DNA of 23,231 bases from a virus: the IMG/VR virus record IMGVR_UViG_3300032282_002542, positions 1-23,231 of that record. The stretch is one strand, 5' to 3'. The stretch's first letter is position 1. Each line of letters begins with the position of its first letter. The position numbers were made by a program, and so were the translations under genes. Shown piece after piece: positions 333 to 23,231 of the stretch. A model generated the notes under the pieces. The model did no database searches and was not told the origin of the DNA. It saw only the letters and a program-made list of their open reading frames with translations.

Positions 333-2198
333 ATGTGTGAAGTATGCGAATCAGAACAAGCGGAACCATCCGAGGATCTCAATGTAACACCAACACCACC
401 CGAGGGTTTTCGATGGGGCAGGTTGGGTGAGACTATTCCTGCGGGTAGTCAGTGGTACTACCGAGGCGTGCATGACGGTAGTGGTGAGGGTAGTGCTGGG
501 GAAAGACTACGCCTCCAACCACCACACTATTGTGCGTTTCCAATTGTCCCGTCAGATATTTCTGATAAGGAGACAATGGCACCTGAGCCAATTGTTTATC
601 CTGATGACTGGTCCGACAATGCCAAACGATTGGCACGGTATCTCGAAGGACTGACAGCGTACGAAGGCAAGCCGGAAAAGTGTGTCCCGGCAATTGAACG
701 AGTACAGTCACTTTACCCAAATGGATTTGGTTGTACCGACACTGGCGAGATTTATCAACTAGGCTTTACTGGCAAACGTACAGCAGTCCGTTTTCGTATG
801 TTCACCGATAACATGAAATGGCCAACATACAGTTCTCACTATGATACGTTTTGCGAGCGTATCTTTTCCGAGTCTACTGGCAAGATTCACATTGCTTCTG
901 GCGACGACATACACGAGATTTTTCAGACTCATCGGCCTGGCTCCTGCATGGGGGGCGATGGTAATGATCTACACTCATTCCGAGAAGTGTATGCCGTCAA
1001 CGATAAGACAATCGGAATCATCTATTCTGGTCCGAAGTCTAACCCATTGGTTGAGTCGGTATGTTCCTGCCTGTTCTGGATTGGTAAAAAGAGAATCTAT
1101 CTTGATCGTTTGTACTCATCCGGAACATACCACGCGAAACTACACTATGATCTATTCGCGAATCATCTTGAGAAGCAATACGGCAAGCCTTGCGTTCCGA
1201 TTTTTACCAATTCGCACAAACGCAAACAATGGTCAAAGAGTATCACATTCAAATTGGCCAATCATGGTAATCCCCTGCCATATATGGACACAATCCAGAA
1301 TGTAAAGGATTGCAATTCTAGATTTATCTGGATGACAACAAAGACAACAGGACTACGTTGTACCGACACTAGCGGAACATGGCCCGACGGCAGGGGGCGT
1401 TGCAAGTGTTCAGGATGTAATTGTTCGCTGGACGAAGACGACGCATACCACTGGGACGATTCAACGTACTGTGAAGAATGCTACGATGAGACTGTAGGAC
1501 ACTGCCAATATACTGAACAGGATTGCGATGCTGACGATATTCAATCGATCGAATTGTACGGTCATCCATCGAACTATTCTCGACGATACAATCGGTTTGA
1601 CGTTACTTGGCGTACAATGTCAGTGTCGAGCGATACCATTTCATCATATTTCACAGAATTGCACGATGGCAGTTATGCTGAAAATGATCTAACGATCGAG
1701 GACAATCGAGGACGTGCGTTCACCAATGATCCTGATTCATGGGACGACGCTACACTGACGGAAGACGGTGAATTGTACCACATTGATGACGTTGTCCAAT
1801 TGAGTGATGGTAGAACGTATCCTCAAGACGAGTGTGTTGAGGTTGACGGGGAATGGTACTTGTCAGGCGAAGAACCTGAAACGGAAGACGATAGTGCCGA
1901 TGATGATTCTGAGAACGAAGACACTACGGAACAGGAAGACAGTTTAGAACCTGTTGTGTCTGCAATCGTTGATCGTCGTGACCTGTCGGACAATTGGACA
2001 CCCCCAGAAGGCTATCGAATTCTGGATGCTGGTGAAGTAATTCAGCCTGGCGATTGTTGTTTTGGTGATCCTGGTTATCGTCGTTTGGTTCTGCACTATA
2101 ATCCGCTTGGATTCGCTTCTCACGATTATGGTAGAATCGTCGGTAGCAACGCTCTACTTTACACTCGATCTATTACAGAAAACATGGTGACAGAATGA
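333..2198 (+). CDS. Large Cys-rich phage protein with 'SCMGG' motif, function unknown
   Basis: This 621-residue protein has no assigned function. The start is supported by GGAG at 321-324, 8 nt upstream. Residues 22-45 form a P-P-E-G-F-R...G-E module that recurs near the C-terminus (557-575, P-P-E-G-Y-R) and at the N-terminus of the gene at 5161. A central part carries S204-C205-M206-G-G followed by a strand-rich segment, which resembles an uncharacterised family seen in phages with an S/T-C-M motif. Cysteines at 357, 359, 362, 364, 380 and 383 look like a zinc-binding knuckle. Residues of about 510-540 are strongly acidic and probably disordered. No signal peptide or membrane segment is seen. 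The stop codon overlaps the peptidase start (ATGA), so the two are translationally coupled. An early host-interaction role is a guess from the position behind a regulatory leader. Confidence 0.9.
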   Translation: MCEVCESEQAEPSEDLNVTPTPPEGFRWGRLGETIPAGSQWYYRGVHDGSGEGSAGERLRLQPPHYCAFPIVPSDISDKETMAPEPIVYPDDWSDNAKRLARYLEGLTAYEGKPEKCVPAIERVQSLYPNGFGCTDTGEIYQLGFTGKRTAVRFRMFTDNMKWPTYSSHYDTFCERIFSESTGKIHIASGDDIHEIFQTHRPGSCMGGDGNDLHSFREVYAVNDKTIGIIYSGPKSNPLVESVCSCLFWIGKKRIYLDRLYSSGTYHAKLHYDLFANHLEKQYGKPCVPIFTNSHKRKQWSKSITFKLANHGNPLPYMDTIQNVKDCNSRFIWMTTKTTGLRCTDTSGTWPDGRGRCKCSGCNCSLDEDDAYHWDDSTYCEECYDETVGHCQYTEQDCDADDIQSIELYGHPSNYSRRYNRFDVTWRTMSVSSDTISSYFTELHDGSYAENDLTIEDNRGRAFTNDPDSWDDATLTEDGELYHIDDVVQLSDGRTYPQDECVEVDGEWYLSGEEPETEDDSADDDSENEDTTEQEDSLEPVVSAIVDRRDLSDNWTPPEGYRILDAGEVIQPGDCCFGDPGYRRLVLHYNPLGFASHDYGRIVGSNALLYTRSITENMVTE

Positions 2199-3214
2199 TA
2201 GAACTAAACGTGGAACAATTCGAACTAATCGTTCGGGAATGCTGTACACTCACCACCGATGATATGTTCCGTCGATTGTGTGAAGTTTACGGTTTTACAC
2301 TTACTCATCGTGGATCTGAACAATGGGGTAAGGCTGGAAAGATGATCCATAACCGTTATGCCTATCGCCCTGGCAAGTTTGCAGACAGTCCGTTGCTAGT
2401 CTGTCATGCTGACACGGTCTTAGGAAATCTCAGCTATTCGTACGACGTGGAACGTATGGTTGTAACTTCTTCCGAACTGGACGATCGTTTGGGTATCGCT
2501 TGTATGTTGTATTCCCTGTCGCTGAGGAATGCTCTTTCTGAATGTGCTATGTTGGTGTGTGACAACGAAGAGATTGCAAGTACTACAGCCAGCCAGTTTA
2601 CTGACGATACGCTGGCGATGAATGGCACATCAGAAACAGGGTTACCAGTTTGGCTGATGGAATTCGATAGGAGAGGTGTGGACGTGGTCACGTATGTCTA
2701 TGGCAACGATACATTTCATTCATTGTTGGAATCCGTAGGGTTTACAGTAGGTGAGGGTTCCTTTTCCGATATATCCAGCATGGTTGATATTGGGCGTAGT
2801 GGCGTGAATGTTGGAGTAGGGTATCATTCAGAACATTCAACACGTTGCCACGCAAGGCTGAGCGATACGCTGCTCCAATTGGGGCGTGCTGTTCAGTTCT
2901 GTGAGTTCTATTCTTGCGTGACACTACGCTACGCCCCGAGACTTCAGAAGTATGGTAAGTATGAACGGTTTAACTATGACGGGTACTACGACGACGACAG
3001 ATCATTGTTTTCATCTACGGGTGCAAAACTATCGTTGACGCCTGTCGTCGATGATATGTGGGACAATCCGATTGATGAAGACGATGTGAACGAACTAGAG
3101 TGTTGCGAATGTTGTGATGCAATCACTCACGAGCAGGACATGTTAGACTTTGGTGGACAACGTATCTGCGAGCAGTGTTATCGTGATTTCGTGTCGCCCA
3201 ATTCTCTTTCCTAG
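2195..3214 (+). CDS. M20/M28-like di-zinc metallopeptidase with Cys-rich C-terminal tail
   Basis: This 339-residue protein carries the ordered metal and catalytic motifs of the M20/M28/M42 peptidase clan: H71-A-D73, D96-D97-x2-G, D123-N-E125-E126, F157-D158 and G-Y-H211-S-E-H214. By family knowledge H71, D97, E126, D158 and a C-terminal His would hold two zinc ions, with D73 and E125 as catalytic residues. The substrate could be a peptide or an acylated amino acid. Residues of about 300-330 add a second element (CCECC ... CEQC) that looks like a zinc knuckle and is similar in style to the cysteines of the upstream protein. There is no signal peptide, so the enzyme should act in the host cytoplasm. 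It starts inside the stop of the upstream gene (ATGA). The motif order is clear; family placement within the clan is uncertain. Confidence 0.85.
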   Translation: MIELNVEQFELIVRECCTLTTDDMFRRLCEVYGFTLTHRGSEQWGKAGKMIHNRYAYRPGKFADSPLLVCHADTVLGNLSYSYDVERMVVTSSELDDRLGIACMLYSLSLRNALSECAMLVCDNEEIASTTASQFTDDTLAMNGTSETGLPVWLMEFDRRGVDVVTYVYGNDTFHSLLESVGFTVGEGSFSDISSMVDIGRSGVNVGVGYHSEHSTRCHARLSDTLLQLGRAVQFCEFYSCVTLRYAPRLQKYGKYERFNYDGYYDDDRSLFSSTGAKLSLTPVVDDMWDNPIDEDDVNELECCECCDAITHEQDMLDFGGQRICEQCYRDFVSPNSLS

Positions 3215-6744: not shown

Positions 6745-7077
6745 TTACTTTTTATGATACTCATTCCATAACCATTTGACAATGGGCCATGCAAAGTTTC
6801 TGAAGAGGAACCATGCTAACCAGCCATAGCCCATCTCGTAGCGGATAGCCAGTTCCATCTCACGAGCATCGACTGGTGCATCAGGTAGTTCTGCGATACG
6901 AAAGAATGACTGGCTGATGGTCAGTGCCTGAGCAGCACGCTTGGGTAGATGTTTAGTGGACAGTATGGTTCGGTTAGCCGGTGCTGTCTTCCATTCTGGT
7001 GGAAGTAACTCGAATCGTTCCAGCATCTTACGCTCAAGGTCACACTGTTCTGGTACAGACATGGGGGTGAATCGCAT
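6745..7077 (-). CDS. Small unknown protein with hydrophobic aromatic C-terminus
   Basis: The protein has 110 residues. It starts 8 nt after the exported protein's stop and has AAAGG upstream, so it belongs to the holin-like operon. The first 80 residues are soluble and charged. Residues of about 83-103 are aromatic and hydrophobic (GYGWLAWFLFRNFAWPIV) and could be a tail anchor or an amphipathic membrane helix. The end is basic. A role at the host membrane is inferred only from composition and context. Confidence 0.65.
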   Translation of the reverse strand: MRFTPMSVPEQCDLERKMLERFELLPPEWKTAPANRTILSTKHLPKRAAQALTISQSFFRIAELPDAPVDAREMELAIRYEMGYGWLAWFLFRNFAWPIVKWLWNEYHKK

Positions 7078-7085
7078 GGTAGCCT

Positions 7086-7913
7086 TTACTTAAAGTTGAT
7101 GGTAAGGTCTGGGATCATGACCTCGGGGGTGATGACTGTAACGGATTTGTAATCGGATGTGAAGCGTACTTCTGAAATAGAAGCTGATGCTGTGATGCCG
7201 AGCTTACGGACTGATGCCTGAATGGGCGGATCAATCTTGATGGATGTGGTTTCCAACTTGATTGTCTGGTTCCCCGGCCAGATCAGCAGCAGACCTAGTG
7301 CCTCACTCTTGTACTGTTTGTCCTTCATGAGTTTCTGAAGGATAGATGGAACAGAGTCAGGCACGTTGACATCATACTCGAACCATCCACCGTAGAGAGG
7401 CTGGTCTGGTGTGATGAATGGTTTAGACTTGCTGGCTTCAGCAGCAGCTTGCTGTTCGAGGTATGCTGCCAGTACTGATACTACCGTTTCTGGTGTAGCG
7501 TCGACACCTTCAGTTGTTGCTACGATTTGGGATGGTGGTGCAGCCAGTTGGACGGTGAACTCCTGTGGGATGAACTTGATGTTCTGCCCATACTGACTGT
7601 TGGCCACCGTGAAGTCGATGACGTGTTCAGGCTTGCCACCAGATGCAAGAAAGTTGGCCTTACCTCGTGGACATGCCGGACAGTTGGGACCGACAGCCAG
7701 GTAGCGTTCAGGTGCTGGTGCTGCTGAGACTAACAGGCTGAAGGTAACACTGGGTTTGTCAGGCTCTGGTGCTGGAGGGGTCTCAGGCTGCTCAGGAGCC
7801 TCGATGACTGGTTCTGGGACAGGAATACTCTTCAGTCGATCTCTGGCCTGCTGTAGGGTATCCTGTGCGATCAGGGAGGGTGTCAGTAATAGGAAAAGGT
7901 ATATGGCTCTCAT
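7086..7913 (-). CDS. Exported protein with CPAC thioredoxin-like motif
   Basis: The protein has 275 residues. Residues 1-16 are a short signal peptide (hydrophobic core ending S-L-I-A-Q). Residues 30-55 are Pro/Glu-rich, a likely extended linker. C78-P-A-C81 is followed 35 residues later by I-P116, the spacing of the CxxC active site and cis-proline of thioredoxin-fold proteins; the Trx assignment is inference. The C-terminal 100 residues look beta-rich. Its start overlaps the protease stop (ATGA) and AGGAG precedes it, so it is co-expressed with the papain-like protease and acts in the periplasm or outside the cytoplasm. It could reduce disulfides or protect the protease cysteine, or be a structural envelope factor. 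Confidence 0.8.
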   Translation of the reverse strand: MRAIYLFLLLTPSLIAQDTLQQARDRLKSIPVPEPVIEAPEQPETPPAPEPDKPSVTFSLLVSAAPAPERYLAVGPNCPACPRGKANFLASGGKPEHVIDFTVANSQYGQNIKFIPQEFTVQLAAPPSQIVATTEGVDATPETVVSVLAAYLEQQAAAEASKSKPFITPDQPLYGGWFEYDVNVPDSVPSILQKLMKDKQYKSEALGLLLIWPGNQTIKLETTSIKIDPPIQASVRKLGITASASISEVRFTSDYKSVTVITPEVMIPDLTINFK

Positions 7914-8779
7914 GCAAGTTCTCCTGCTGGGTTGGGATTAAGGAGGGGGTTGTCTGGAATCCATTGAAGTTCATTCTTCCAGTCCACGATACGAGGCTCT
8001 GGAGTCTTGAGGTCTGAGCAGCCGATGGTGACAGTCCCTTTGTCCTGTGCCTGACTGTCAACGAACTGCTTGGTGTGGTAGGCAAAGCCATTGTCGCCAT
8101 AAGTCTTGTAGTGACTGTTGGCTTCTACGAGATGGATAACACCGTTGATAGTGATCCAGTCGACGTAGGCACGAGCGTGTCCACCACCACCAGAGACAAA
8201 GCGTGTAGCAATGCCTGCTGAGTTAGGCTTCCAGTTGCCCCACGCACCACCGACTTCAACTGCTCCTTGTCCTGTCTGCAGGAAGCGTAGGATCTGATCG
8301 AAGCCTCGTAGCTCGATCGAATAACCGATGGTCCAGTTGGCAGCGATGCCGTAACAATCTCGGGGGAAAGGAAAGTTGTAGTCAACCTTGTACGGGTACT
8401 CGGCCTTACCATCATTGTCGATGTCTTCTGGTAGACAACCAACCTTCTTGGCTGCTGCTACAACACCGTCGATGGTGGCTCCATTGTCTCCTCGGATACC
8501 AGAGACTTCCTGACCACGACGATAGGACCACAGTGGGTTGAACTGCCGCCATACACGAGTCTGGTTGTAATGACAAACTTCGGCGGTGTTGGTAAGACCA
8601 AAGCCAGCACAGGAGTTCATCTGTGCCTGATCGTCTCGTCGCATCAAGTCTTTGATCCCTCGTGTATCCGGGATGTCTCCAGTACACACGAGGGACATGA
8701 TATCGAACTTGATACACTGAGCAGAGAGTGCTGCTCGGTCTTCACGTCGTGGATCGTAACCAGTAAAGTGCCATGTCAT
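7910..8779 (-). CDS. Papain-like (C1-type) cysteine protease
   Basis: The protein has 289 residues. The papain catalytic set is visible in order: Q51 (oxyanion hole) six residues before C57 in S-C-A-G-F, H201 in G-G-G-G-H-A-R-A, and N221 in E-A-N-S-H followed by Y-G-D-N-G-F. These match the papain pattern NSWG..WG-NGY with Trp replaced by His. There is no signal peptide and no obvious inhibitory propeptide (only about 45 residues precede the active site). It would need a holin or lysis to reach the envelope. It follows the two-TM protein by 1 nt, with AGGAG upstream, and couples to the exported CPAC protein. In this operon position an endolysin would be expected. It could cleave peptidoglycan peptide stems or envelope proteins, or be a virion-maturation protease. 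Confidence 0.85.
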   Translation of the reverse strand: MTWHFTGYDPRREDRAALSAQCIKFDIMSLVCTGDIPDTRGIKDLMRRDDQAQMNSCAGFGLTNTAEVCHYNQTRVWRQFNPLWSYRRGQEVSGIRGDNGATIDGVVAAAKKVGCLPEDIDNDGKAEYPYKVDYNFPFPRDCYGIAANWTIGYSIELRGFDQILRFLQTGQGAVEVGGAWGNWKPNSAGIATRFVSGGGGHARAYVDWITINGVIHLVEANSHYKTYGDNGFAYHTKQFVDSQAQDKGTVTIGCSDLKTPEPRIVDWKNELQWIPDNPLLNPNPAGELA

Positions 8780-8780
8780 A

Positions 8781-9257
8781 TCAGAGACTCCTGTTCTTCA
8801 GGTCGAATGCGAACTTGGTAGGATCACCACCATCAGCAGCTTTGGCAGCAATATCATTGATTGGTTGGTAGGCTGCTTTGTAGACAGCTACCTGACGGTC
8901 GTTGATGTACTTGAGTGCGTCTGCTGGTGTCTTGAACGTGTCACGTTTGGTAGCGAACTGTGCCCACTCTTCTGCCAGTAGCTCACGATACGCATCGTTG
9001 GCTGTGTCCAGCTTATCCTTGTCGACGACTGGTGTTGGGTCTGGAGGAATGGGTGTAACGGATGGTTGGTGAGGTAGCAGGATCATGGCAGCAACAGCAG
9101 CGAGTACAATGTTGTTGCTGGTGAAGATTTTCTTCAGGTCTATCTTGGCGAGTAGCCCCTTGATAGTTTCTGGTGAAGGAAGAATCTTAGGTAGCTGGGT
9201 GAGAGCAATGATTGCTCCGAGGATGTAGAGTTTGGTTTGAAGATCGAGTTGGATCAT
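8781..9257 (-). CDS. Two-TM membrane protein of the holin operon
   Basis: The protein has 158 residues. Hydrophobic segments at about 9-25 and 48-62 are joined by a basic stretch, followed by a Pro-rich linker (65-77) and a charged helical C-terminal domain. The linker-plus-helix layout after a membrane anchor recalls spanin-type or accessory lysis proteins, but there is no sequence proof. Its ATG overlaps the stop of the putative holin (ATGA), so the two are coupled. It could also be a second holin. Confidence 0.75.
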   Translation of the reverse strand: MIQLDLQTKLYILGAIIALTQLPKILPSPETIKGLLAKIDLKKIFTSNNIVLAAVAAMILLPHQPSVTPIPPDPTPVVDKDKLDTANDAYRELLAEEWAQFATKRDTFKTPADALKYINDRQVAVYKAAYQPINDIAAKAADGGDPTKFAFDLKNRSL

Positions 9258-9421
9258 TTGGTTCCCTTTGACTTAATGGACCAGAAGACTGTAAGTGCTG
9301 CCACGATACCGGCAACGATAGTGGTTGCTGTTGAGTCATCCATGTAACCTTGGCTGACGGTGATGCCAGCGATGACTGTCAGGATGTGTCTTGCAATTCC
9401 TTGGTACTGTTCGATCGACAT
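9254..9421 (-). CDS. Putative small holin
   Basis: The protein has 55 residues with two short hydrophobic segments (about 8-24 and 30-47), a turn containing Y-M-D-D-S, and a basic tail (SKGTK). The pattern R-H-x-L-T ... G-Y-x-D ... W-S-I resembles a family annotated in phages as putative Pam3-gp28-like holins, from memory. The start follows a TAGAAAGGTAGTTACT leader with AAAGG. It heads the operon with the two-TM protein and papain-like protease. Holin function is inferred from size, topology and context. Confidence 0.65.
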   Translation of the reverse strand: MSIEQYQGIARHILTVIAGITVSQGYMDDSTATTIVAGIVAALTVFWSIKSKGTK

Positions 9422-9442: not shown

Positions 9443-9748
9443 TTAGTAAATCTTTCTTCTGGCTCGTTCATTGTCAGTTTTCTTTCGGTGACACGGAATA
9501 CATTTCGTGGATTTGTTGCTATCCTCGTCGCTGCCACCAGCTTCGATAGGGACTTCGTGATCACATTCCAAAAACGCCTCAGGGTACGACTCACCGCATA
9601 CCTGACAAGTGAAACCATCGCGTTCAAGTATTCGCATTCGGTCTTTTGTTCTTCCCCGTCGCTTGTGGACTGCGACCTTTTCCACTAGGGGTTGGTCTCT
9701 TCGGTTTGGGTTCTTGATCTTCACTGTCGGATAGACCGGCTTCGACAT
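9443..9748 (-). CDS. HNH endonuclease
   Basis: The protein has 101 residues. The classic HNH core is present: C48-x2-C51, E-C-D63-H64-E, G-G-S-D, N78 and C83-I-P-C86-H87-R. Zinc is held by the two Cys pairs; H64 activates water. The first 30 residues are basic. The frame overlaps the end of the helicase-like gene by 125 nt; an inner ATG at codon 38 (9637) would cut the overlap to 14 nt but leave little before the core. It lies at the junction between the replication and holin blocks, typical of a mobile HNH gene. It could instead be a packaging-associated HNH protein, but no terminase is nearby. Confidence 0.85.
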   Translation of the reverse strand: MSKPVYPTVKIKNPNRRDQPLVEKVAVHKRRGRTKDRMRILERDGFTCQVCGESYPEAFLECDHEVPIEAGGSDEDSNKSTKCIPCHRKKTDNERARRKIY

Positions 9749-11021
9749 GTTGTTCTACCAATCTAAAGGCATCCTGAATCCAGCGAGCACACTTGAGGGT
9801 TGGTACTGTGCGACCACGGACAGGGCGATGATCTGTATCGTTGGGGATGAGGATGCCCAATGAGATCAGATCGTCGATACGCCTTGTAATAGTTTCCAGT
9901 GGAATAGAGGTCAGCACAGCGATGGATTGCCGTGTCAGACCACTCTCAGCCAGTGCAACAGTACGAATGATATTATGCTGCCGACTGAAGGCTGTGTCCA
10001 GTGCAACCTTGGTCAGCAGTACACGAATCCGTTGAGTAATCTCGGTAGTACCGAGTACGTAGCACAGGCATAAGGCTAGGCGACTAAGTTGTTTCACAAC
10101 ACGGGTAGAGGCTTCTGGTCGAGCATCATAGAGCAGTTCACTGGAGCCGAATTCCTTGCTGCGAGGTGCCTGAGCACGACTACAAGCGATCATATCAGCG
10201 AGGGATTGGATCAAGGCTACGTCATGGTCAGTGTAACCCGGACGCAGGATGTCATTGTTTCTGAGAGTGGAATGGAGATGGGACAGGAAGCCTGCTGTGA
10301 AGGCTCGCTGTTTAGGAAATGATCGACTGTCGCCAGCATCATTACCTTCGAAGCTAGTTTTGGCTGTATGTTCAAATACACCTTTGACAGCATTAGCGTT
10401 GCGTACCTTCTCCATCTCTCTGGTTGTTTCCAGACGACAGTGAAGGAAGCGTTCACCGAGTGCTGCCATGTTTAAGCTGTACACCTTTTCGGTGATACCA
10501 ATTACCATACCGAAAGAGATATTGGAGAAGTTGGCGGATACACCGTTACGGAAGTGCTTGACCAGTGATCCGTCGTAGATTGAGCGTAGTTCTCCGAATA
10601 CGTTGGCAAGCTGCAGAGGGTTGGACTCCAGCAATAGTGTTCCGTCTTTGATCACTACACACTTACCTTGCATCAAGGGCACAAGGTGCTTCCCGTTACG
10701 ATCTCCTGAGATGATACCAGTCAGTGAGTCCAGTGGTGTTGAGTGTATTTCATCCGAGCATATCAGATCGCATACAGTGGACTTGCCTCCTGATGGAGGG
10801 GAAACTAGGTATAGCCAGAGAGGGTCGCCGTCCAGTGCCACAGCGATATGGATAGACATGCAGATGGCTAAGCAGTCCTTCAGTGACTCAGTGATCACCA
10901 TGTCCTGATTGTAGATGTCCATCAGTCTGTCAAATGAATCGCACTGTTGGGGTTGGATAGAAACAACTTCGTCGAGTCTAACTTCGACAAGGGAGGCTTT
11001 AATGAGGTCAATAATGTTCAT
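9624..11021 (-). CDS. AAA+/helicase-like ATPase with C-terminal winged helix
   Basis: The protein has 465 residues. A P-loop variant S-P-P-S-G-G-K80-S-T, a Walker B-like V-V-I-K-D126 and a G-E-R191-F-L arginine-finger motif form an ATPase core at about 60-200. A segment with L-R-S-I-Y-D-G follows the Walker B. Residues of about 355-405 look like a winged helix (SGLTRQSIAVL ... TRRIDDLISLG). The C-terminal 40 residues are basic and disordered. It sits directly downstream of the primase and polymerase, so it is probably the replicative helicase or its loader, taking the place of a DnaB/gp4-type helicase. No RecA-type helicase motifs are seen. The ATPase call is solid; the helicase role is inference. 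Confidence 0.75.
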   Translation of the reverse strand: MNIIDLIKASLVEVRLDEVVSIQPQQCDSFDRLMDIYNQDMVITESLKDCLAICMSIHIAVALDGDPLWLYLVSPPSGGKSTVCDLICSDEIHSTPLDSLTGIISGDRNGKHLVPLMQGKCVVIKDGTLLLESNPLQLANVFGELRSIYDGSLVKHFRNGVSANFSNISFGMVIGITEKVYSLNMAALGERFLHCRLETTREMEKVRNANAVKGVFEHTAKTSFEGNDAGDSRSFPKQRAFTAGFLSHLHSTLRNNDILRPGYTDHDVALIQSLADMIACSRAQAPRSKEFGSSELLYDARPEASTRVVKQLSRLALCLCYVLGTTEITQRIRVLLTKVALDTAFSRQHNIIRTVALAESGLTRQSIAVLTSIPLETITRRIDDLISLGILIPNDTDHRPVRGRTVPTLKCARWIQDAFRLVEQHVEAGLSDSEDQEPKPKRPTPSGKGRSPQATGKNKRPNANT

Positions 11022-11028
11022 GGGGTTC

Positions 11029-11784
11029 CTAGCTCATTGCGTTGTGCAGGTCTCTGATGTCGAATTTCTCCGGGATCTCAGAGAACTGAGGGATGGTGAT
11101 CTGACTCCAGTCCAGATACTGCAGGGTCTTGATCGAGTGACCTGATGACTTGATTCTGCGAGCTACTGATTGAACACCAGATCGTCCTGCGTCATCGTTG
11201 TCAAACAGCAGCACTACGTTCTTGTCTTCCAGCAGGTGCAGGTAGTTGGTGCTGAAGCTGGAGCCACAGGTACCCAACAGATCAGGACCATCAGGTAGGC
11301 GTGAGAGTAACTGACGCATGACCAGATAGTCCCAGTGTCCTTCAGCAACCCATATCTCTTCAGAGCCTGTCAATGCGGACATACCTAATACCGAACATGA
11401 CCATGGTTTCGGAGAACTGTAAACGATATTGTCTGAAGGATTGTACTTGTGGAGTGCGATGATGTCCCCTTTCATATTTCTGACAGGGAACCAATAGTAA
11501 TGACCGTCGCAGCGTATTCCTTCCAGTCTGAGTGCAGATGGTGATACTCCTTTCTTCATACCACAGAACTGTTTAGCTTGCGGCATGGTGAGGTCTGGTA
11601 GCTGTGAGAACCATTCACGCATGTAGGACACACCGTTGCCGGTCTGCTTACATTTCCAGCACTGGAAGACATGTCCTTCATCCTTAGAGACTGAAAGCTT
11701 GTCTGACCCGCACCATAAGCACGCAGTCATGAAGTCTTTGTCAGTCTCTTCGTATGGGACTTCTAGGTGATCGAGTAGTTTCAT
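11029..11784 (-). CDS. DNA primase (CHC2 zinc finger + TOPRIM)
   Basis: The protein has 251 residues. An N-terminal zinc ribbon is formed by C22-x2-C25 and C42-x2-C45. The TOPRIM domain shows E148-G-H-W-D and L-F-D194-N-D196-D-A-G, the acidic residues that bind Mg2+ in DnaG-type primases. It makes RNA primers at the phage fork. It is shorter than cellular DnaG (about 580 residues) and lacks a helicase-binding domain, as in several phage primases. It overlaps the polymerase stop by 4 nt (ATGA) and lies 7 nt before the helicase-like gene, so the three act as a replisome. Confidence 0.93.
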   Translation of the reverse strand: MKLLDHLEVPYEETDKDFMTACLWCGSDKLSVSKDEGHVFQCWKCKQTGNGVSYMREWFSQLPDLTMPQAKQFCGMKKGVSPSALRLEGIRCDGHYYWFPVRNMKGDIIALHKYNPSDNIVYSSPKPWSCSVLGMSALTGSEEIWVAEGHWDYLVMRQLLSRLPDGPDLLGTCGSSFSTNYLHLLEDKNVVLLFDNDDAGRSGVQSVARRIKSSGHSIKTLQYLDWSQITIPQFSEIPEKFDIRDLHNAMS

Positions 11785-13829: not shown

Positions 13830-14723
13830 TTACGGAAGGATCAGGTCAGCGTAGTTGGCTTTGACCTTCTTACCATCACGTTCGAGGGTTACGGTGCCAG
13901 CATCGTCATCTGCTGCGATGACCTTGAAGGTCAGGGCTTTGGGGGACTTCGCTGGCTTGTAATCGACATCAAAGCCAATCCAGTCAGACGGATTGAATTC
14001 TGCTTCAGCAGCGTCTGCAGTATCGTCTGCTTCTTCGGCTGCAGCTTCGTCGAGTTCTTCTGACCATTCATCTGTGGTGTCGTCTGAGTCTGCTGAGTCA
14101 CCTTCAGTGTCTTCTGGTGAAGAGAAGTCCTGATCGTCTGCTTCAGCAGCCAGTCCTGCGATGTAGAAGTTGTTGCCCTTGCCGTCTTTACGTTTGACGA
14201 CTCGGATCATGATGTCCTTACCGACTGTGGACTTGATAGCAGCGTCGATCTGGTCGAGGGACAAGTCCTTCGTGTCGATGCCCATCAACTGGAGATCGCA
14301 CATCAGGTTGTCCAGACCCTGTTCGGCAGAGCGGTACTGGCTGTCATTCAGTCCGTGCAGGATGCCGATACGATGACCGTTGTACTGCTCCTGACCAGCA
14401 ACAGTTCCATCTACCTTGAAGTCAAGGATGTAATAGGTGTTGCCGTCTTTGGTGATAATGTTGTTGCGACTGAACTTGGTGATGACCTCACCCGGAGGAC
14501 CAGCGTAGTCCTGCTGAGGTGTTGTCTTCTTAGCGACTTCCACATGCTTCTTCAAGCGAGCATTGGACTTCATGAGTGCTGCGAGGGAGGTTACTTCTTG
14601 GGCCATTTGAGGTTCTTTCTCGTCAAAGTATTCGTCAGGCATTCGAACTATAACTATACAAACTATGAAGCCTACTAACAGTATCAGCAGACCTCCTTGA
14701 CTTCGCTCTGGTTGAGTGAGCAT
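13830..14723 (-). CDS. OB/SSB-like protein with N-terminal membrane segment and acidic region
   Basis: The protein has 297 residues from the ATG at 14723, which overlaps the ATPase stop as TGATG, a standard coupling. Residues of about 11-26 are a clear hydrophobic segment (GGLLILLVGFIVCIVIV). An inner ATG at 14606 (M-A-Q-E-V) would give a 258-residue soluble form. The middle region (about 70-190: YYILDFKVDG, IGILHGL, GKDIMIRVVKRK) resembles the phage DUF669-type ssDNA-binding family that accompanies Sak4-type ATPases; this is from memory. An acidic stretch at about 200-240 is SSB-tail-like, and a small beta domain ends the protein. The likely role is single-strand DNA binding in replication or recombination. 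Whether the membrane segment is translated is open. Confidence 0.7.
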   Translation of the reverse strand: MLTQPERSQGGLLILLVGFIVCIVIVRMPDEYFDEKEPQMAQEVTSLAALMKSNARLKKHVEVAKKTTPQQDYAGPPGEVITKFSRNNIITKDGNTYYILDFKVDGTVAGQEQYNGHRIGILHGLNDSQYRSAEQGLDNLMCDLQLMGIDTKDLSLDQIDAAIKSTVGKDIMIRVVKRKDGKGNNFYIAGLAAEADDQDFSSPEDTEGDSADSDDTTDEWSEELDEAAAEEADDTADAAEAEFNPSDWIGFDVDYKPAKSPKALTFKVIAADDDAGTVTLERDGKKVKANYADLILP

Positions 14724-18388: not shown

Positions 18389-18416
18389 AGTTTAACCGTC
18401 AGTCTGCGGGTGTCAA
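18389..18416 (-). promoter_or_regulatory. Sigma-70 promoter of the replication operon
   Basis: On the - strand a perfect TTGACA (18411-18416) is followed after 16 nt by TAAACT (18389-18394, four of six consensus bases). Its -35 overlaps the end of the aminotransferase gene. The start codon at 18347 lies about 35 nt after the expected transcription start. Confidence 0.6.
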
Positions 18417-19415
18417 CAGTGGAATAACAATTTTTGCAACATTCATCAGTTCGTCACAGATTCGAGTCACGTCATCGCGGGTCATTGTTTCTGAGAGAGG
18501 AAGATAGATGATCTCGTGCTGAAGTCTCATTGCGTTGGTTTGCAGGAATGGGTTGCCTCGCAAGTGTTCGAACTCGGCTTGCAACTTCATCGACTTGAAA
18601 CCCTGACGGGCAGCAATACCTTTCTCGTTGAGTTTTAGTACAAGTTCTCTTTGCTGAAAGCGATCCATTCCTTTGATACGAATGGGATAGATCCACGGAT
18701 AGATGCACAGCGGCATCACCCATTCCAGAGGTACGTAGCAATCATAATCGACAGACCGTTCCAGCTTGTTGATATAGCTCGCTGAAAAGTTTCTGAGTGA
18801 AGGAAGAATTAGTTCAGCGTGAGCGTTGCTCATGCGAGCATTGACCCCACGAGGAACGTGAAAGTAATCGTGATTGTCGTCAAAGCCAAGAGTACGAAGC
18901 TGTTTAGCCAGTCGTACGTCTTGAGGGTTCTTGAAAGCGATCATTCCGCCTTCTTCACCGTGGATCGTCTTGTTCTTGTAGAAGGACCAGCAGGCTGCAA
19001 ACGAGTTTGGATGCGGCTTAGCACCATGAACTTCAGCCATGTCTTCGATGACCAATGGACCGTACGGCTTACGATGTAACGCAGCAACGTCACATAGATT
19101 GCCGTAGATATGCACAGCCATGACAATGTGCATCTGATCTGGAACCAAGTCCATGTTCATCTGCAGATTGTCGTTGCAGTCTACAAAGTGGATGTCCAGA
19201 TCGGCCATGGCAGCAGCACGAGGACAGGCGACCATCGTGTACTCTGGGATAGCGATACTGGGTCTTACTGCACCAGTTACGTCATCAGTGATCTTGGTAC
19301 GAGCAACTTCACAGGCAATATGCAAGGCTGCTGTGCCACTGGATACTGCGACAGTATTAGGGTTGCCTATGAACTCTCCAAACTCTTTCTCTAGTTGCTC
19401 GAAGGCTTGTGTCAT
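18399..19415 (-). CDS. DegT/DnrJ/EryC1-type sugar aminotransferase
   Basis: The protein has 338 residues. PLP-enzyme motifs are S-S-G-T-A-A at 25-30, V-I-E-D125-M-A-E-V-H-G-A and S-F-Y-K-N-K149-T-I-H-G-E-E-G-G, where K149 would bind PLP. R-G-V-N-A-R-M-S-N is the usual substrate-loop region. The family transfers an amino group to a keto-sugar nucleotide. I choose the ATG at 19415 because it overlaps the HNH stop as ATGA; a TTG at 19451 would add 12 residues inside the HNH gene. It is the last gene of the glycan cassette and presumably supplies the amino sugar acylated by the GNAT protein. Confidence 0.92.
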   Translation of the reverse strand: MTQAFEQLEKEFGEFIGNPNTVAVSSGTAALHIACEVARTKITDDVTGAVRPSIAIPEYTMVACPRAAAMADLDIHFVDCNDNLQMNMDLVPDQMHIVMAVHIYGNLCDVAALHRKPYGPLVIEDMAEVHGAKPHPNSFAACWSFYKNKTIHGEEGGMIAFKNPQDVRLAKQLRTLGFDDNHDYFHVPRGVNARMSNAHAELILPSLRNFSASYINKLERSVDYDCYVPLEWVMPLCIYPWIYPIRIKGMDRFQQRELVLKLNEKGIAARQGFKSMKLQAEFEHLRGNPFLQTNAMRLQHEIIYLPLSETMTRDDVTRICDELMNVAKIVIPLLTPAD

Positions 19416-19933
19416 TTTGTTTGCTCGTTTTGAGGGTTTACGTGTTTCCAAGTTTTTCTACGAACCAGTAAATCTATCAGTTGTGTGGACACTCCGAATT
19501 CTTTTGCTAGAGCATTCATTCCATTGACTCGGCATCTGGGTTTGTACCTCTGCAAAATCGTAGTGGCAATGGTCTCGGTTATCTTAGATGCTTTGTTTTT
19601 GTTTCCTTTTGCGTGTCTGTTTTTTGCTACGCAGTCTAACTTGTTGTCAAGTGGGCTTCCGAGCCACAAATGTTCTGGGTTTATGCATTGAGGCACGTCA
19701 CATCTGTGGCATACGTAATCCCCCTGTCCTATTTCTCCTTTGAATAGTCTGTATGATAGCCGATGTGCTCTGGTCTCGCCAAGACCGTAGCACTGCCCGT
19801 AACCTCTGCCCGTTGTGCTTCCGTTCCACAGCCAGCATGGCGTAGTTAGCCCTACCGGCACATGTGACTGGATATCAATGCCGCTCATCAGCCGCAACAA
19901 TACGTTTTTCCGTTTGTAAATTCCTTTTGGCAT
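19412..19933 (-). CDS. HNH homing endonuclease inserted in the glycan operon
   Basis: The protein has 173 residues. The core is C33-W-L-W-N-G, R-A-H57-R-L-S-Y, V-C75-H76-R-C78, C83-I-N-P-E-H88-L-W and L-D-N-K-x-D, typical of phage HNH homing enzymes. Residues 140-160 form a helix-turn-helix-like DNA-binding end (ALAKEFGVSTQLIDLLV). The start at 19933 is 2 nt after the cupin stop; an upstream ATG at 19960 lies inside the cupin gene. It overlaps the aminotransferase by 4 nt. It separates two sugar genes, so it is most likely a mobile insertion that preserved the operon. Confidence 0.9.
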   Translation of the reverse strand: MPKGIYKRKNVLLRLMSGIDIQSHVPVGLTTPCWLWNGSTTGRGYGQCYGLGETRAHRLSYRLFKGEIGQGDYVCHRCDVPQCINPEHLWLGSPLDNKLDCVAKNRHAKGNKNKASKITETIATTILQRYKPRCRVNGMNALAKEFGVSTQLIDLLVRRKTWKHVNPQNEQTK

Positions 19934-19935
19934 GG

Positions 19936-20385
19936 TTATTTCATCTGTTCGTGAGCACAAGGATCGAAGTCGTAATTGAAGTAAACTTTGTCAGCAGGCG
20001 TGTACGGTCCTTGTTTGATCTCAACAAACTGGACATCAGTGATGAAGTGAAATGCGTGACCACCAGAGTACTGTATGTAAATGTCTCCGGTACGTAAAGG
20101 CTTTGCTGCTACAAAATTACCATTTGTGTCAAAGATGTCTACGACAATGTGACCTGAACGAACAATCAGTACTTCCTGTGTTCCCATCACTTGTTTCTGG
20201 ACAGGAAGATGTTGATGAGCTTGGACGACTGTGCCAGCCTGACGATGCAGGACTCCTACCTGAATGGATTGGCTATCATCAGTAACGAATTCAGTCTTCT
20301 CCTTCTCGTTGCCAACATGCAGGCTGTGGAGGTGCGTTGCCAGCAGGATCAGTGAGTTTGGGACGTATACGTTGTCAACGAACAT
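19936..20385 (-). CDS. Cupin-fold protein, probable sugar-modifying enzyme
   Basis: The protein has 149 residues. The cupin metal site is A-H57-Q-H59, E71 in Q-E-V-L-I-V and H110 in S-G-G-H-A-F. The end of the fold reads V-E-I-K-Q-G-P-Y, then D-K, a pattern I associate with cupins in polysaccharide gene clusters. With the neighbouring aminotransferase and acetyltransferase it could be a keto-sugar isomerase or epimerase (FdtA-like by analogy only). GGAG precedes the ATG; it overlaps the GNAT gene by 11 nt. Confidence 0.8.
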   Translation of the reverse strand: MFVDNVYVPNSLILLATHLHSLHVGNEKEKTEFVTDDSQSIQVGVLHRQAGTVVQAHQHLPVQKQVMGTQEVLIVRSGHIVVDIFDTNGNFVAAKPLRTGDIYIQYSGGHAFHFITDVQFVEIKQGPYTPADKVYFNYDFDPCAHEQMK

Positions 20386-20740
20386 TGTTTAGCTCCAAGA
20401 GGGTTGTGTACTTCTGAGAGAAGAGAATAGCATGACCATCAGCGTAAACACCTTTGACCGATGACAGATCGAAGCCTAACGCTTTGTAAAAGCTCTGTGA
20501 TCCGATGTTGCCTGCTCGTGTGAATCCGAATACTGATTCGTAAGGTGGATCGTCTTTGAGTTCTTGCAGCATAGCGAGGACCAGACCACGACCAGTGCCT
20601 TGTCCGGGAACGTGAGTCTTGATATGGAGCAGTTCTACGTTATCTCCTGTGGCTCTGCGGTAAACGATGTAACCATTCTCCCACTCGATGAAGGAGACAC
20701 CACAGTAAGGATGAACGTACTTGTCTAGATCAATTCGACT
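20375..20740 (-). CDS. GNAT N-acetyltransferase
   Basis: The protein has 121 residues. The acetyl-CoA motif is P-G-Q48-G-T-G-R-G and the C-terminal motif is N79-I-G-S-Q-S-F-Y-K-A-L-G-F-D. The ATG at 20740 is chosen for the GGGAG just upstream; a longer frame to 20836 lies inside the glycosyltransferase gene. It overlaps that gene by 11 nt. Next to a sugar aminotransferase it may N-acetylate an amino sugar; a free-amino-acid or protein substrate is also possible. Confidence 0.85.
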   Translation of the reverse strand, partial: SRIDLDKYVHPYCGVSFIEWENGYIVYRRATGDNVELLHIKTHVPGQGTGRGLVLAMLQELKDDPPYESVFGFTRAGNIGSQSFYKALGFDLSSVKGVYADGHAILFSQKYTTLLELNNVR

Positions 20741-21620
20741 CATCGTACAACTCCCAGAAGCGTTTAGCCATTCGTTTAGCCATAGCGTATTCGCTGTACT
20801 TTTTTGTAATCCATGAGCGTGCTTCGTCGATGTCAACCTTGGGTGGGTTGTCCATCATCTCAATTAGTTTCTTTCTGAACAAAATAGGGTTGTCCCATTG
20901 GAAGTATTCTGCTCGACAGCCAAAGTATTCGTGCCCACCATGACGTGGTGAGTTGGAGATGAGAGATGGAACGCCGTGCCAGTAGCCTTCAACGAGTGAA
21001 AGCCCACCAGTCGATGCTTCGAATTGTGCTGATATTAGGAAGCGAGCATTGGCGATGATACGCTTGAATTCTTCCCATGGTCTCTCATTCTGTGTTTCGA
21101 TCAAGTCAACACCGATAGCTTTGCAGTGCTCGTGAGCTAAGTCTCTGTTCGGGTCTGGGTACTTACGCATCACGTCGACAGCATATTCTGGTGAACGAAG
21201 CTTGGCGGCTTCCCATGGACGGACTGAAGTCTTGATCAGAGTACAATCGTCTCTACCAGTGAACTCGAATGTCCGATTGGTTACGGTTTCTGATGGTACC
21301 CAGATGTCTCTGCAGGTAGTAAGTTCTTCGAGATAAGGGTCCCATAGATCTGGATTAGCTCGTGTGTAACCGTTGCATTCGACTACTTGGAAGGGATACA
21401 GATCCCAGTTGTAGTGGATTGTTGGAACGTGTGGGTGGCGTAGACGTTCTCGTTTAACATCGTTCATTTTCCAGATGGTACCACAGAAGATGAATGAGCA
21501 ATCAGCAGTAAGTTCAAGCTGACAGTCAATGCCGAACTTACGCAGTTCCTCTACGAGTACATCGCCTTCACCGGGTTTCCTATGTGCCTCTGTAAAGTAT
21601 TCTGGGAACCAGACTTTCAT
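20730..21620 (-). CDS. Glycosyltransferase, GT-B fold (group 1-like)
   Basis: The protein has 296 residues from the ATG at 21620, which overlaps the upstream stop as ATGA. The C-terminal domain has F-E201-A-S-T-G-G-L-S-L-V-E211-G-Y-W-H-G-V-P, the nucleotide-sugar-binding E-x(n)-E pattern of GT-B enzymes. The N-terminal half has the beginning M-K-V-W-F-P-E-Y and a conserved N-W-D-L-Y-P. It transfers a sugar from a nucleotide donor in the host cytoplasm. Donor and acceptor cannot be read from the sequence. Confidence 0.88.
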   Translation of the reverse strand: MKVWFPEYFTEAHRKPGEGDVLVEELRKFGIDCQLELTADCSFIFCGTIWKMNDVKRERLRHPHVPTIHYNWDLYPFQVVECNGYTRANPDLWDPYLEELTTCRDIWVPSETVTNRTFEFTGRDDCTLIKTSVRPWEAAKLRSPEYAVDVMRKYPDPNRDLAHEHCKAIGVDLIETQNERPWEEFKRIIANARFLISAQFEASTGGLSLVEGYWHGVPSLISNSPRHGGHEYFGCRAEYFQWDNPILFRKKLIEMMDNPPKVDIDEARSWITKKYSEYAMAKRMAKRFWELYDESN

Positions 21621-22474
21621 GTGTCGCATTGAAAACACTCCGGGATAAGTCCTGTGTAGAAACTGACACGAGCACCACGAGGAAGTTCCGTCTTAGGTTC
21701 CCATGTCTCGAAGCATTGACGGCTCTCACAGTACCATGACCGCTTACGATCTACAGCTTCTCCACGAGCTTCATAATAACGATTCTTGGCTGCTCTGGTT
21801 CTCAGCTGGGAGGCGAAGCCCATGTGCACCATATACGGGAGTCCTGGCTGAGTCATACGAGCTAGTCGTAGATCCAGCGAAGTACTACCGATGAACGGTG
21901 TGTTGTGATTCCCGTAGTGCAGTCCTCGGTACCATCGCCATACACGACAGTAGGGAATGTCCCAAAAGCCACCAGAGACTTCGAAGTCAAACTGTGGCGT
22001 TCGCATTTCCTGTAGGTATGGTGGATACCAGATCTCTCTATGCTTGAAAGCAAATCCGTTGCCAAGAGTCTTAGGTAACAAGTAGTTGATGTCGGTCTGA
22101 CACTCGAACGGATAGAACTCATCAGCATCCAACACGATGAAGTAATTTGGATGGAAGTCCATGTCGGTTATTGCTCGCAGGTACTGATCGCGAGCTTCGC
22201 ACTTACCTTGAGCCTTGTCTTTGGCTGAGCAGAAACCGTACTTGATATGAGTAACACGACTGTCGATACTCGCCAGTTGCGACAAGTACTCTGTGGTACC
22301 GTCGACACTCAGACCTTCTGGTGAGACCATATCAGGATTAGTTTCTGCGTAGACACGATCGGCAGATTCTACGAAGATCCACTTCTCTACTCCCGGCCAG
22401 TTCATGTGCTGTTCGTAGAGTTTAGGGAGCCATTCCATCTCATTGAGCACCAGAGTGCAGAGTGCGAGCTTCAT
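21617..22474 (-). CDS. Glycosyltransferase, GT-A fold (family 2-like)
   Basis: The protein has 285 residues from the ATG at 22474 (ATGA overlap with the upstream gene); a frame open to 22522 is not used. The N-terminus M-K-L-A-L-C-T-L-V-L-N-E-x-E-W-L is typical of GT-A transferases. F-I-V-L-D116-A-D118-E-F is the DxD metal and donor site. The C-terminal half is rich in Trp, Tyr and Arg. There is no membrane segment. It probably adds one sugar to the same glycan as its neighbours. Confidence 0.88.
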   Translation of the reverse strand: MKLALCTLVLNEMEWLPKLYEQHMNWPGVEKWIFVESADRVYAETNPDMVSPEGLSVDGTTEYLSQLASIDSRVTHIKYGFCSAKDKAQGKCEARDQYLRAITDMDFHPNYFIVLDADEFYPFECQTDINYLLPKTLGNGFAFKHREIWYPPYLQEMRTPQFDFEVSGGFWDIPYCRVWRWYRGLHYGNHNTPFIGSTSLDLRLARMTQPGLPYMVHMGFASQLRTRAAKNRYYEARGEAVDRKRSWYCESRQCFETWEPKTELPRGARVSFYTGLIPECFQCDT

Positions 22475-23231
22475 AGTACAGACTCCAGTGCTTCGATGTA
22501 ACGATGCTTCAGCATTTCCCACGAATTGGCAGTACGATAGTTCTTGCCTTCCAAGGAGAACTTCTCAATATCCTGTCCGTTCCATTGATCGAGGCAGGCA
22601 GCAATAGCGACAGGATCTACTACTGACTCTTCGATCTTAAGATGACCAGACATGACCTGAGTGATACGCCGTGCAGCAATTGGGATCAGAGGTTCTTCAG
22701 GTAACCACTGGTTAGTTGGAAACCTGTTGGTTGTCATCACCATCATGCCCGAAGCGAATGCTTCCTGCAATGGAAGGCTAAGCCCATTGTATTTTTCTGG
22801 TGCGACATAGACATCGTACGTCGGACAGAATAACTCACGACGCTGAATCTCACCAGCAATGATTGTTGGTAGTAACGTGCCCTTTGGTAGATCAGCCTCT
22901 TTGAGTAGCTTGTAGATCCCTTCAGGTTTCTGGCAGCGAATAGTCAAGCAGACATGGGATTGAACGTACGCCAATGCTCTGATCAGTTCTAGTGTACCCT
23001 TGTGGTTACGAGAGCCAATGTTGCCAGCATTGTGCAGGAACCTACGTGCCTTAGTCCTGCGAGTCCACTGGATGTGCGGCTCAACAGGAATAGAAATGTG
23101 GACACCGTCAGGAAAGTATTGCTGATCAAGTAACGATGGATTGATGAACAGATCGAATTTGTGACGTGGATGTTCGAGGAACCATTCATACATCGGAATG
23201 ATGACAGTCTTGACTCCACGTTCGTGACAAC
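22471..23231 (-). CDS. Glycosyltransferase, GT-B group 4-like, partial
   Basis: At least 253 residues are visible; the frame is open through the right edge (C-H-E-R-G-V-K-T-V-I-I-P precedes the Met at 23193), so the start lies outside the window. Features are H-N-A-G-N ... R-N-H-K-G-T-L-E-L-I, the GT4 hinge motif, and EKYNGLSLPLQEAFASG, the C-terminal donor-binding motif. It is the first visible gene of the glycan cassette and overlaps the next start by 4 nt. Confidence 0.88.
   Translation of the reverse strand, partial: CHERGVKTVIIPMYEWFLEHPRHKFDLFINPSLLDQQYFPDGVHISIPVEPHIQWTRRTKARRFLHNAGNIGSRNHKGTLELIRALAYVQSHVCLTIRCQKPEGIYKLLKEADLPKGTLLPTIIAGEIQRRELFCPTYDVYVAPEKYNGLSLPLQEAFASGMMVMTTNRFPTNQWLPEEPLIPIAARRITQVMSGHLKIEESVVDPVAIAACLDQWNGQDIEKFSLEGKNYRTANSWEMLKHRYIEALESVL

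Follow-up and report, generated by a model that had tools for sequence, protein, structure and literature searches.

A candidate lysis cassette pairing a papain-like protease with a holin-like and an exported thioredoxin-like protein in uncultured bacterial viruses

To our knowledge, the described lysis pathways of dsDNA phages almost always end in peptidoglycan hydrolysis. Release of a signal-less enzyme by a holin is the canonical pathway, and in holin-endolysin cassettes the gene of a small holin-type protein is coupled to that of the signal-less enzyme and to others whose products are membrane-bound or exported. The locus described here has a similar make-up but encodes a C1-type papain-like peptidase, with no recognised peptidoglycan hydrolase, and includes in the same block an exported thioredoxin-like protein. 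The bursting enzyme thus appears to have been swapped for a papain-like protease and an exported partner.

Endolysins with a papain fold have been described from other families, namely CHAP, NlpC/P60, C39-like and C71 (PMC10318531, PMC3314691), which renders the idea of a protease acting as the lysis enzyme less radical and more plausible, and the lysis cassette of Gordonia phage BetterKatz encodes a cysteine protease-like protein, gp29 (PMC4982276). Such domains (CHAP, NlpC/P60, the C39-like N5 of mycobacteriophage LysA and the C71 enzymes PeiW and PeiP) resemble the protein studied here in their catalytic Cys and His, in a papain-like fold, which is likely for the present protein, and in a phage lysis role, which is proposed for it. 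The present protein is related to C1 peptidases, with a Gln-Cys-His-Asn tetrad, and no cell-wall binding domain was seen in it. When compared to the family C1 peptidases themselves (xylellain 3ois, cruzain, cathepsins), the tetrad is in register over the catalytic domain, but the present protein is phage-encoded beside a holin, has a short N-terminal region without recognised inhibitory propeptide, and displays Ser-His after the Asn instead of Ser-Trp, the latter being kept in a relative from a huge phage. Finally, the exported protein shares with thioredoxin-like exported oxidoreductases a CxxC motif, a putative export signal and a possible profile similarity to thioredoxins, and differs from them by an attached C-terminal domain, conserved but not assignable to a family, and, in one case, by a trypsin-like domain.

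The gene block and its relatives

The window corresponds to a whole IMG/VR record of 23,231 bases, which is a genome fragment of an uncultured bacterial virus. The first-pass annotation had described four coupled genes at 7086-9421, and all four ORFs were found at that place, on the minus strand, with 4-base overlaps between genes 1 and 2 and between genes 3 and 4, and a 1-base gap between genes 2 and 3. A fifth gene belongs to the same block:

9254-9421, minus strand: holin-like protein, 55 aa, PF23987 match
8781-9257, minus strand: two-TM protein, 158 aa, two hydrophobic segments
7910-8779, minus strand: papain-superfamily (C1-type) cysteine protease, 289 aa, with Q51, C57, H201 and N221
7086-7913, minus strand: exported thioredoxin-like protein, 275 aa, with a signal peptide read by eye, a Pro-rich linker, CPAC and a conserved C-terminal domain
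6745-7077, minus strand: fifth gene, 110 aa, same position in most relatives

Of the five genes, that of the protease is most strongly constrained by purifying selection (dN/dS 0.06-0.15), the other four giving values of 0.13-0.36 where the ratio was computable. A survey of related phages for the same gene order, which had been proposed as a check, found the protease/exported core in seven other contigs but showed that the order is not rigid. These contigs fall into lineage A, together with the window, and lineage B, found with a degenerate DNA pattern built on the region of the catalytic cysteine and with a broader search by alignment:

G001, IMG/VR 3300042565_001261, 30.5 kb, lineage A, protease 96% identical to that of the window
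G002 (locus L003), IMG/VR 3300044695_002640, 45.5 kb, lineage A, protease 90% identical
G003 (L004), IMG/VR 3300008448_000127, 51.4 kb, lineage A, protease 77% identical
G004 (L019), IMG/VR 3300009161_000083, 44.5 kb, lineage A, protease 65% identical
G005 (L022), IMG/VR 3300048833_000277, 38.8 kb, lineage B
G006 (L026), IMG/VR 3300048834_000678, 12.2 kb, lineage B
G007 (L029), IMG/VR 3300048597_000138, 35.3 kb, lineage B

G005 was taken as complete because it displays an exact direct terminal repeat of 127 bp and one ORF continues across the join. No further locus was retrieved with the exported protein as query, no cellular relative was found in two scans of genome contigs, and no relative of the protease in plasmids. 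Searches with csrA, methylase, terminase and polymerase were uninformative as to the host.

Other genes of the window include one for a peptidase-like protein (2195-3214; PHROG 4191 peptidase, E=1.9e-9) located beside that of a 621-aa protein of no known family, both with counterparts in G003. An HNH endonuclease gene (9443-9748; PF01844) and the end of the gene that precedes it (9624-11021) share 125 bases on the same strand. At 18399-23193, successive genes resemble those of sugar aminotransferases and glycosyltransferases and have counterparts in relatives, which suggests that the virion or the host surface is glycosylated.

Proteins encoded by the block

The catalytic residues proposed for the protease (Q51, C57, H201 and N221) were correctly numbered and, like the N-S-H around N221, are invariant in seven sequences with identity down to 48%. 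The Gln-Cys-His-Asn tetrad also aligns, in order, with a relative encoded by the 595-kb uncultured phage LR756511, which hhalign relates to the protease with 94% probability. As a single sequence, the window protease had zero matches in Pfam, PHROGs and PDB, and PF00112 gave no match over the eight phage records, window included, only the huge phage LR756511 being matched. The LR756511 relative itself has a weak match to PF00112 (E=0.0033, below cut-off) and matches a PHROG peptidase (E=4.3e-12). A profile of the seven phage proteases retrieved three PDB matches only, all cruzain/cruzipain with the tetrad in register (E 1.5-2.3). When the LR756511 relative was included (profile A14), 81 matches were obtained, with 3ois as the best (E=8.5e-9) and the best 60 all corresponding to papain-family peptidases, a similarity that depends on including a relative that itself weakly matches PF00112. 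Structure prediction, also proposed as a check, was run for the protease and gave a poor AlphaFold model (mean pLDDT 41); all 50 Foldseek matches listed for it were papain-type, with E of at least 1e-3 and TM of about 0.25. The papain-type assignment made from the motif is therefore supported by the A14 profile: on these comparisons, membership of the papain superfamily is established, and a papain fold is likely.

Two side observations relate to LR756511.1. Its papain-like gene overlaps a gene for an exported protein (L020:5045-6636), which has no alignment with the exported protein of the window and no PDB relative, and a second, stronger C1 match occurs at 449322-449933.

Whether a protease of this type might act on peptidoglycan was considered, since other papain-fold enzymes serve as endolysin domains (PMC10318531, PMC3314691) and the BetterKatz lysis cassette has a cysteine protease-like protein (PMC4982276). 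According to this alternative, the block would still be a lysis cassette in which the protease cuts peptide stems or cross-links of peptidoglycan, as an endolysin of an unusual papain-type family. We consider it unlikely: the profile points to C1 peptidases (xylellain, cruzain, cathepsins), which cut proteins, and not to CHAP or NlpC/P60; a CHAP search was negative; neither the protease nor its relatives matched an endolysin family, and no cell-wall binding domain was recognised in the protease.

The description of the first gene product as a small holin-like protein was borne out by a match to PF23987 (Phage_holin_10; E=2.8e-11, 43.7 bits for a curated cut-off of 27), the family of holin Pam3 gp28, which is a holin family by annotation. 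Counterparts occur at L003:9152-9319, L004:9161-9331 and L019:7112-7279, and a PF23987 match is also found among G004 proteins (E=5.8e-16). In every relative examined (G002 to G007), the first gene of the block encodes a small hydrophobic protein, those of lineage B having no PF23987 match and being holin-like by size and hydrophobicity only. In the second protein, the two predicted hydrophobic segments were located at positions 10-26 and 44-60, and the protein aligns with its counterparts in relatives. Its C-terminal domain is predicted to lie outside the inner membrane because the loop between both segments is lysine-rich (positive-inside reading by eye). In L019, the C-terminal part is encoded separately, by a gene whose product begins with a hydrophobic segment, and in G007 the gene appears split by a frame change. 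The fifth protein has a C-terminal hydrophobic/amphipathic stretch (GYGWLAWFLFRNFAWPIVKWLW).

The exported CPAC protein was likewise recovered, its signal peptide being a by-eye reading. Within the family (six sequences, with divergence to about 26% identity), no cysteine other than C78 and C81 is invariant, and six of the eight PDB matches of the family profile are thioredoxin-like, the best being 3vfi (E=0.004). The G007 homologue matches PF00085 with E=0.001, below the curated cut-off, and also PF13365 Trypsin_2 (E=2.9e-5; L029:8838-10301); it has thus gained a trypsin-like domain, so that one phage has two protease types in its cassette. The conserved C-terminal domain matches no known family. 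The AlphaFold model was again poor, and its Foldseek matches were meaningless and discarded.

Distribution of the block between two lineages

All ORFs of the window, G003 and G004 (lineage A) were compared by BLASTP with those of G005 and G007 (lineage B). The protease gave by far the strongest similarity (49-57% identity), followed by matches of the exported protein (22-27%) and of the G004 two-TM protein to G005 and G007 proteins (31% identity, best E=3e-5), the remaining ones being ORFs that shadow the protease gene on the opposite strand, plus a weak match of a terminase-antisense ORF. Many genes match within lineage B. The capsid, portal and terminase genes correspond to Phage_capsid, Phage_portal and TerL in lineage A versus GP7, Phage_portal_2 and GpA in lineage B. 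Since only genes of the block are clearly homologous between the lineages, it behaves as a travelling cassette.

The cassette adjoins replication genes, away from structural genes, in lineage A, and is found directly upstream of the terminase gene in lineage B. In G002, extra genes precede the block and separate the protease gene from the exported gene, indicating that strict adjacency of the latter two is not required. HNH-like genes, as judged by eye, are present among these extra genes just upstream of the cassette (L003:8583-9155) and inside it (L003:10846-11424). In lineage B, the exported gene is followed by a csrA-like one (PF02599; L022:5182-5376, L026:2860-3045 and L029:10351-10536), so that not every gene of the block need serve lysis; a second csrA-like gene occurs in G005 at 11236-11490. 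The fifth gene has the same position in L003, L004 and L019 and is found after csrA in L026 and L029. It was not seen at that place in G005, where a BrnT-type toxin gene and an HTH partner (toxin-antitoxin type) occur instead on the opposite strand between cassette and terminase (L022:5366-5961).

The conservation of the block bears on the alternative that the protease acts in the cytoplasm, in host-protein degradation or phage-protein processing, and is merely co-transcribed with the holin. The protease has no signal peptide, the reducing cytoplasm would keep such an enzyme active, and the papain-like gene of LR756511 adjoins that of an exported protein with no obvious holin. Against this, a block with exported and membrane proteins has been kept in two otherwise distinct lineages, and the phages would be left without any recognised endolysin; this alternative is, in our opinion, quite unlikely.

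Endolysin search and possible role in lysis

A canonical endolysin elsewhere in the genome had been named as one of two results that would speak against a lysis role for the protease, the other being its presence in virions as a head-maturation enzyme. No such endolysin was recognised in four genome-scale contigs. Endolysin families were absent from the best 25 of the 32 Pfam families matched in G005 (94 ORFs; E down to about 6e-4), from the 25 families listed for G004 (E down to about 7e-5) and from the G003 and G007 scans, those of G003, G004 and G007 covering all but a few long genes (G004 tape measure, G007 terminase). Six-frame searches of the eight records for Amidase_2, CHAP, M15_4, Phage_lysozyme, M23 and SLT yielded no match that passed the cut-offs, and matches were obtained with the same six families in control genomes.

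Two candidates were rejected. A sub-threshold Amidase_2 similarity in the window (11.9 bits, 14319-14474) was taken as chance, the relatives of that protein elsewhere not matching. In G003, a protein labelled endolysin (phrog_2252, E=3.4e-56; L010:10383-11015) is really of the dATP/dGTP pyrophosphohydrolase type, a mislabelling by which automatic annotation would be misled.

In phages whose hosts are poorly known, endolysins can have diverged beyond what Pfam recognises, so that absence of a match is not proof of absence, and roughly one in two genes of the present phages belongs to no family. A divergent endolysin encoded elsewhere, with the cassette as a lysis accessory clearing envelope proteins, is nevertheless an explanation to which we give little weight, since the six endolysin families are absent in six frames from all eight records and the enzyme would have to evade Pfam in two unrelated lineages that share no other recognisable gene.

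Head proteases are encoded with the portal and capsid genes, and are ClpP-like in G003 and G004 and of the S49 type in G005. As these hold the protease place of the capsid module, and as the lineage A cassette lies beside replication genes and away from structural ones, a virion-associated or head-maturation protease is highly improbable, even if the lineage B cassette is directly upstream of the terminase gene. With no recognised endolysin and with heads served by ClpP-like or S49 enzymes, the papain-like protease is the best remaining candidate for the lysis enzyme.

From the position of its gene, we infer that the protease may be the envelope-degrading enzyme. Tentatively, and short of calling it probable, we favour a holin-dependent lysis cassette in which a C1-type cysteine peptidase cuts envelope proteins and replaces a canonical endolysin. 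Late in infection, the small holin would permeabilise the inner membrane and thereby release the cytoplasmic peptidase, which would then cut envelope proteins; the absence of a hydrophobic segment in the protease fits such a holin-released enzyme. Outside the inner membrane, the exported CxxC protein would keep the catalytic cysteine reduced and/or reduce disulfides of envelope proteins, and the two-TM and fifth proteins may be membrane-associated accessories. Papain-type enzymes require a reduced cysteine, so that an exported thioredoxin-like protein could plausibly aid activity in the oxidising periplasm.

A more specific version, which we regard as doubtful, is that the hosts are opened not through hydrolysis of peptidoglycan but through digestion of proteins and reduction of disulfides, the exported partner reducing an envelope layer made of protein and stabilised by disulfides. 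An example of such a layer is the disulfide-bonded protein sacculus that planctomycetes were once described to have. These bacteria, which are a candidate host, have peptidoglycan that is sensitive to lysozyme (PMC4432640), and a purely proteolytic lysis would therefore need explaining.

Overall, the cassette suggests an unusual route for opening the bacterial envelope. If the proposed reading is true, it would point to hosts that rely on protein for the integrity of their envelope, besides offering a directly testable lysis mechanism and a source of new envelope-active enzymes.
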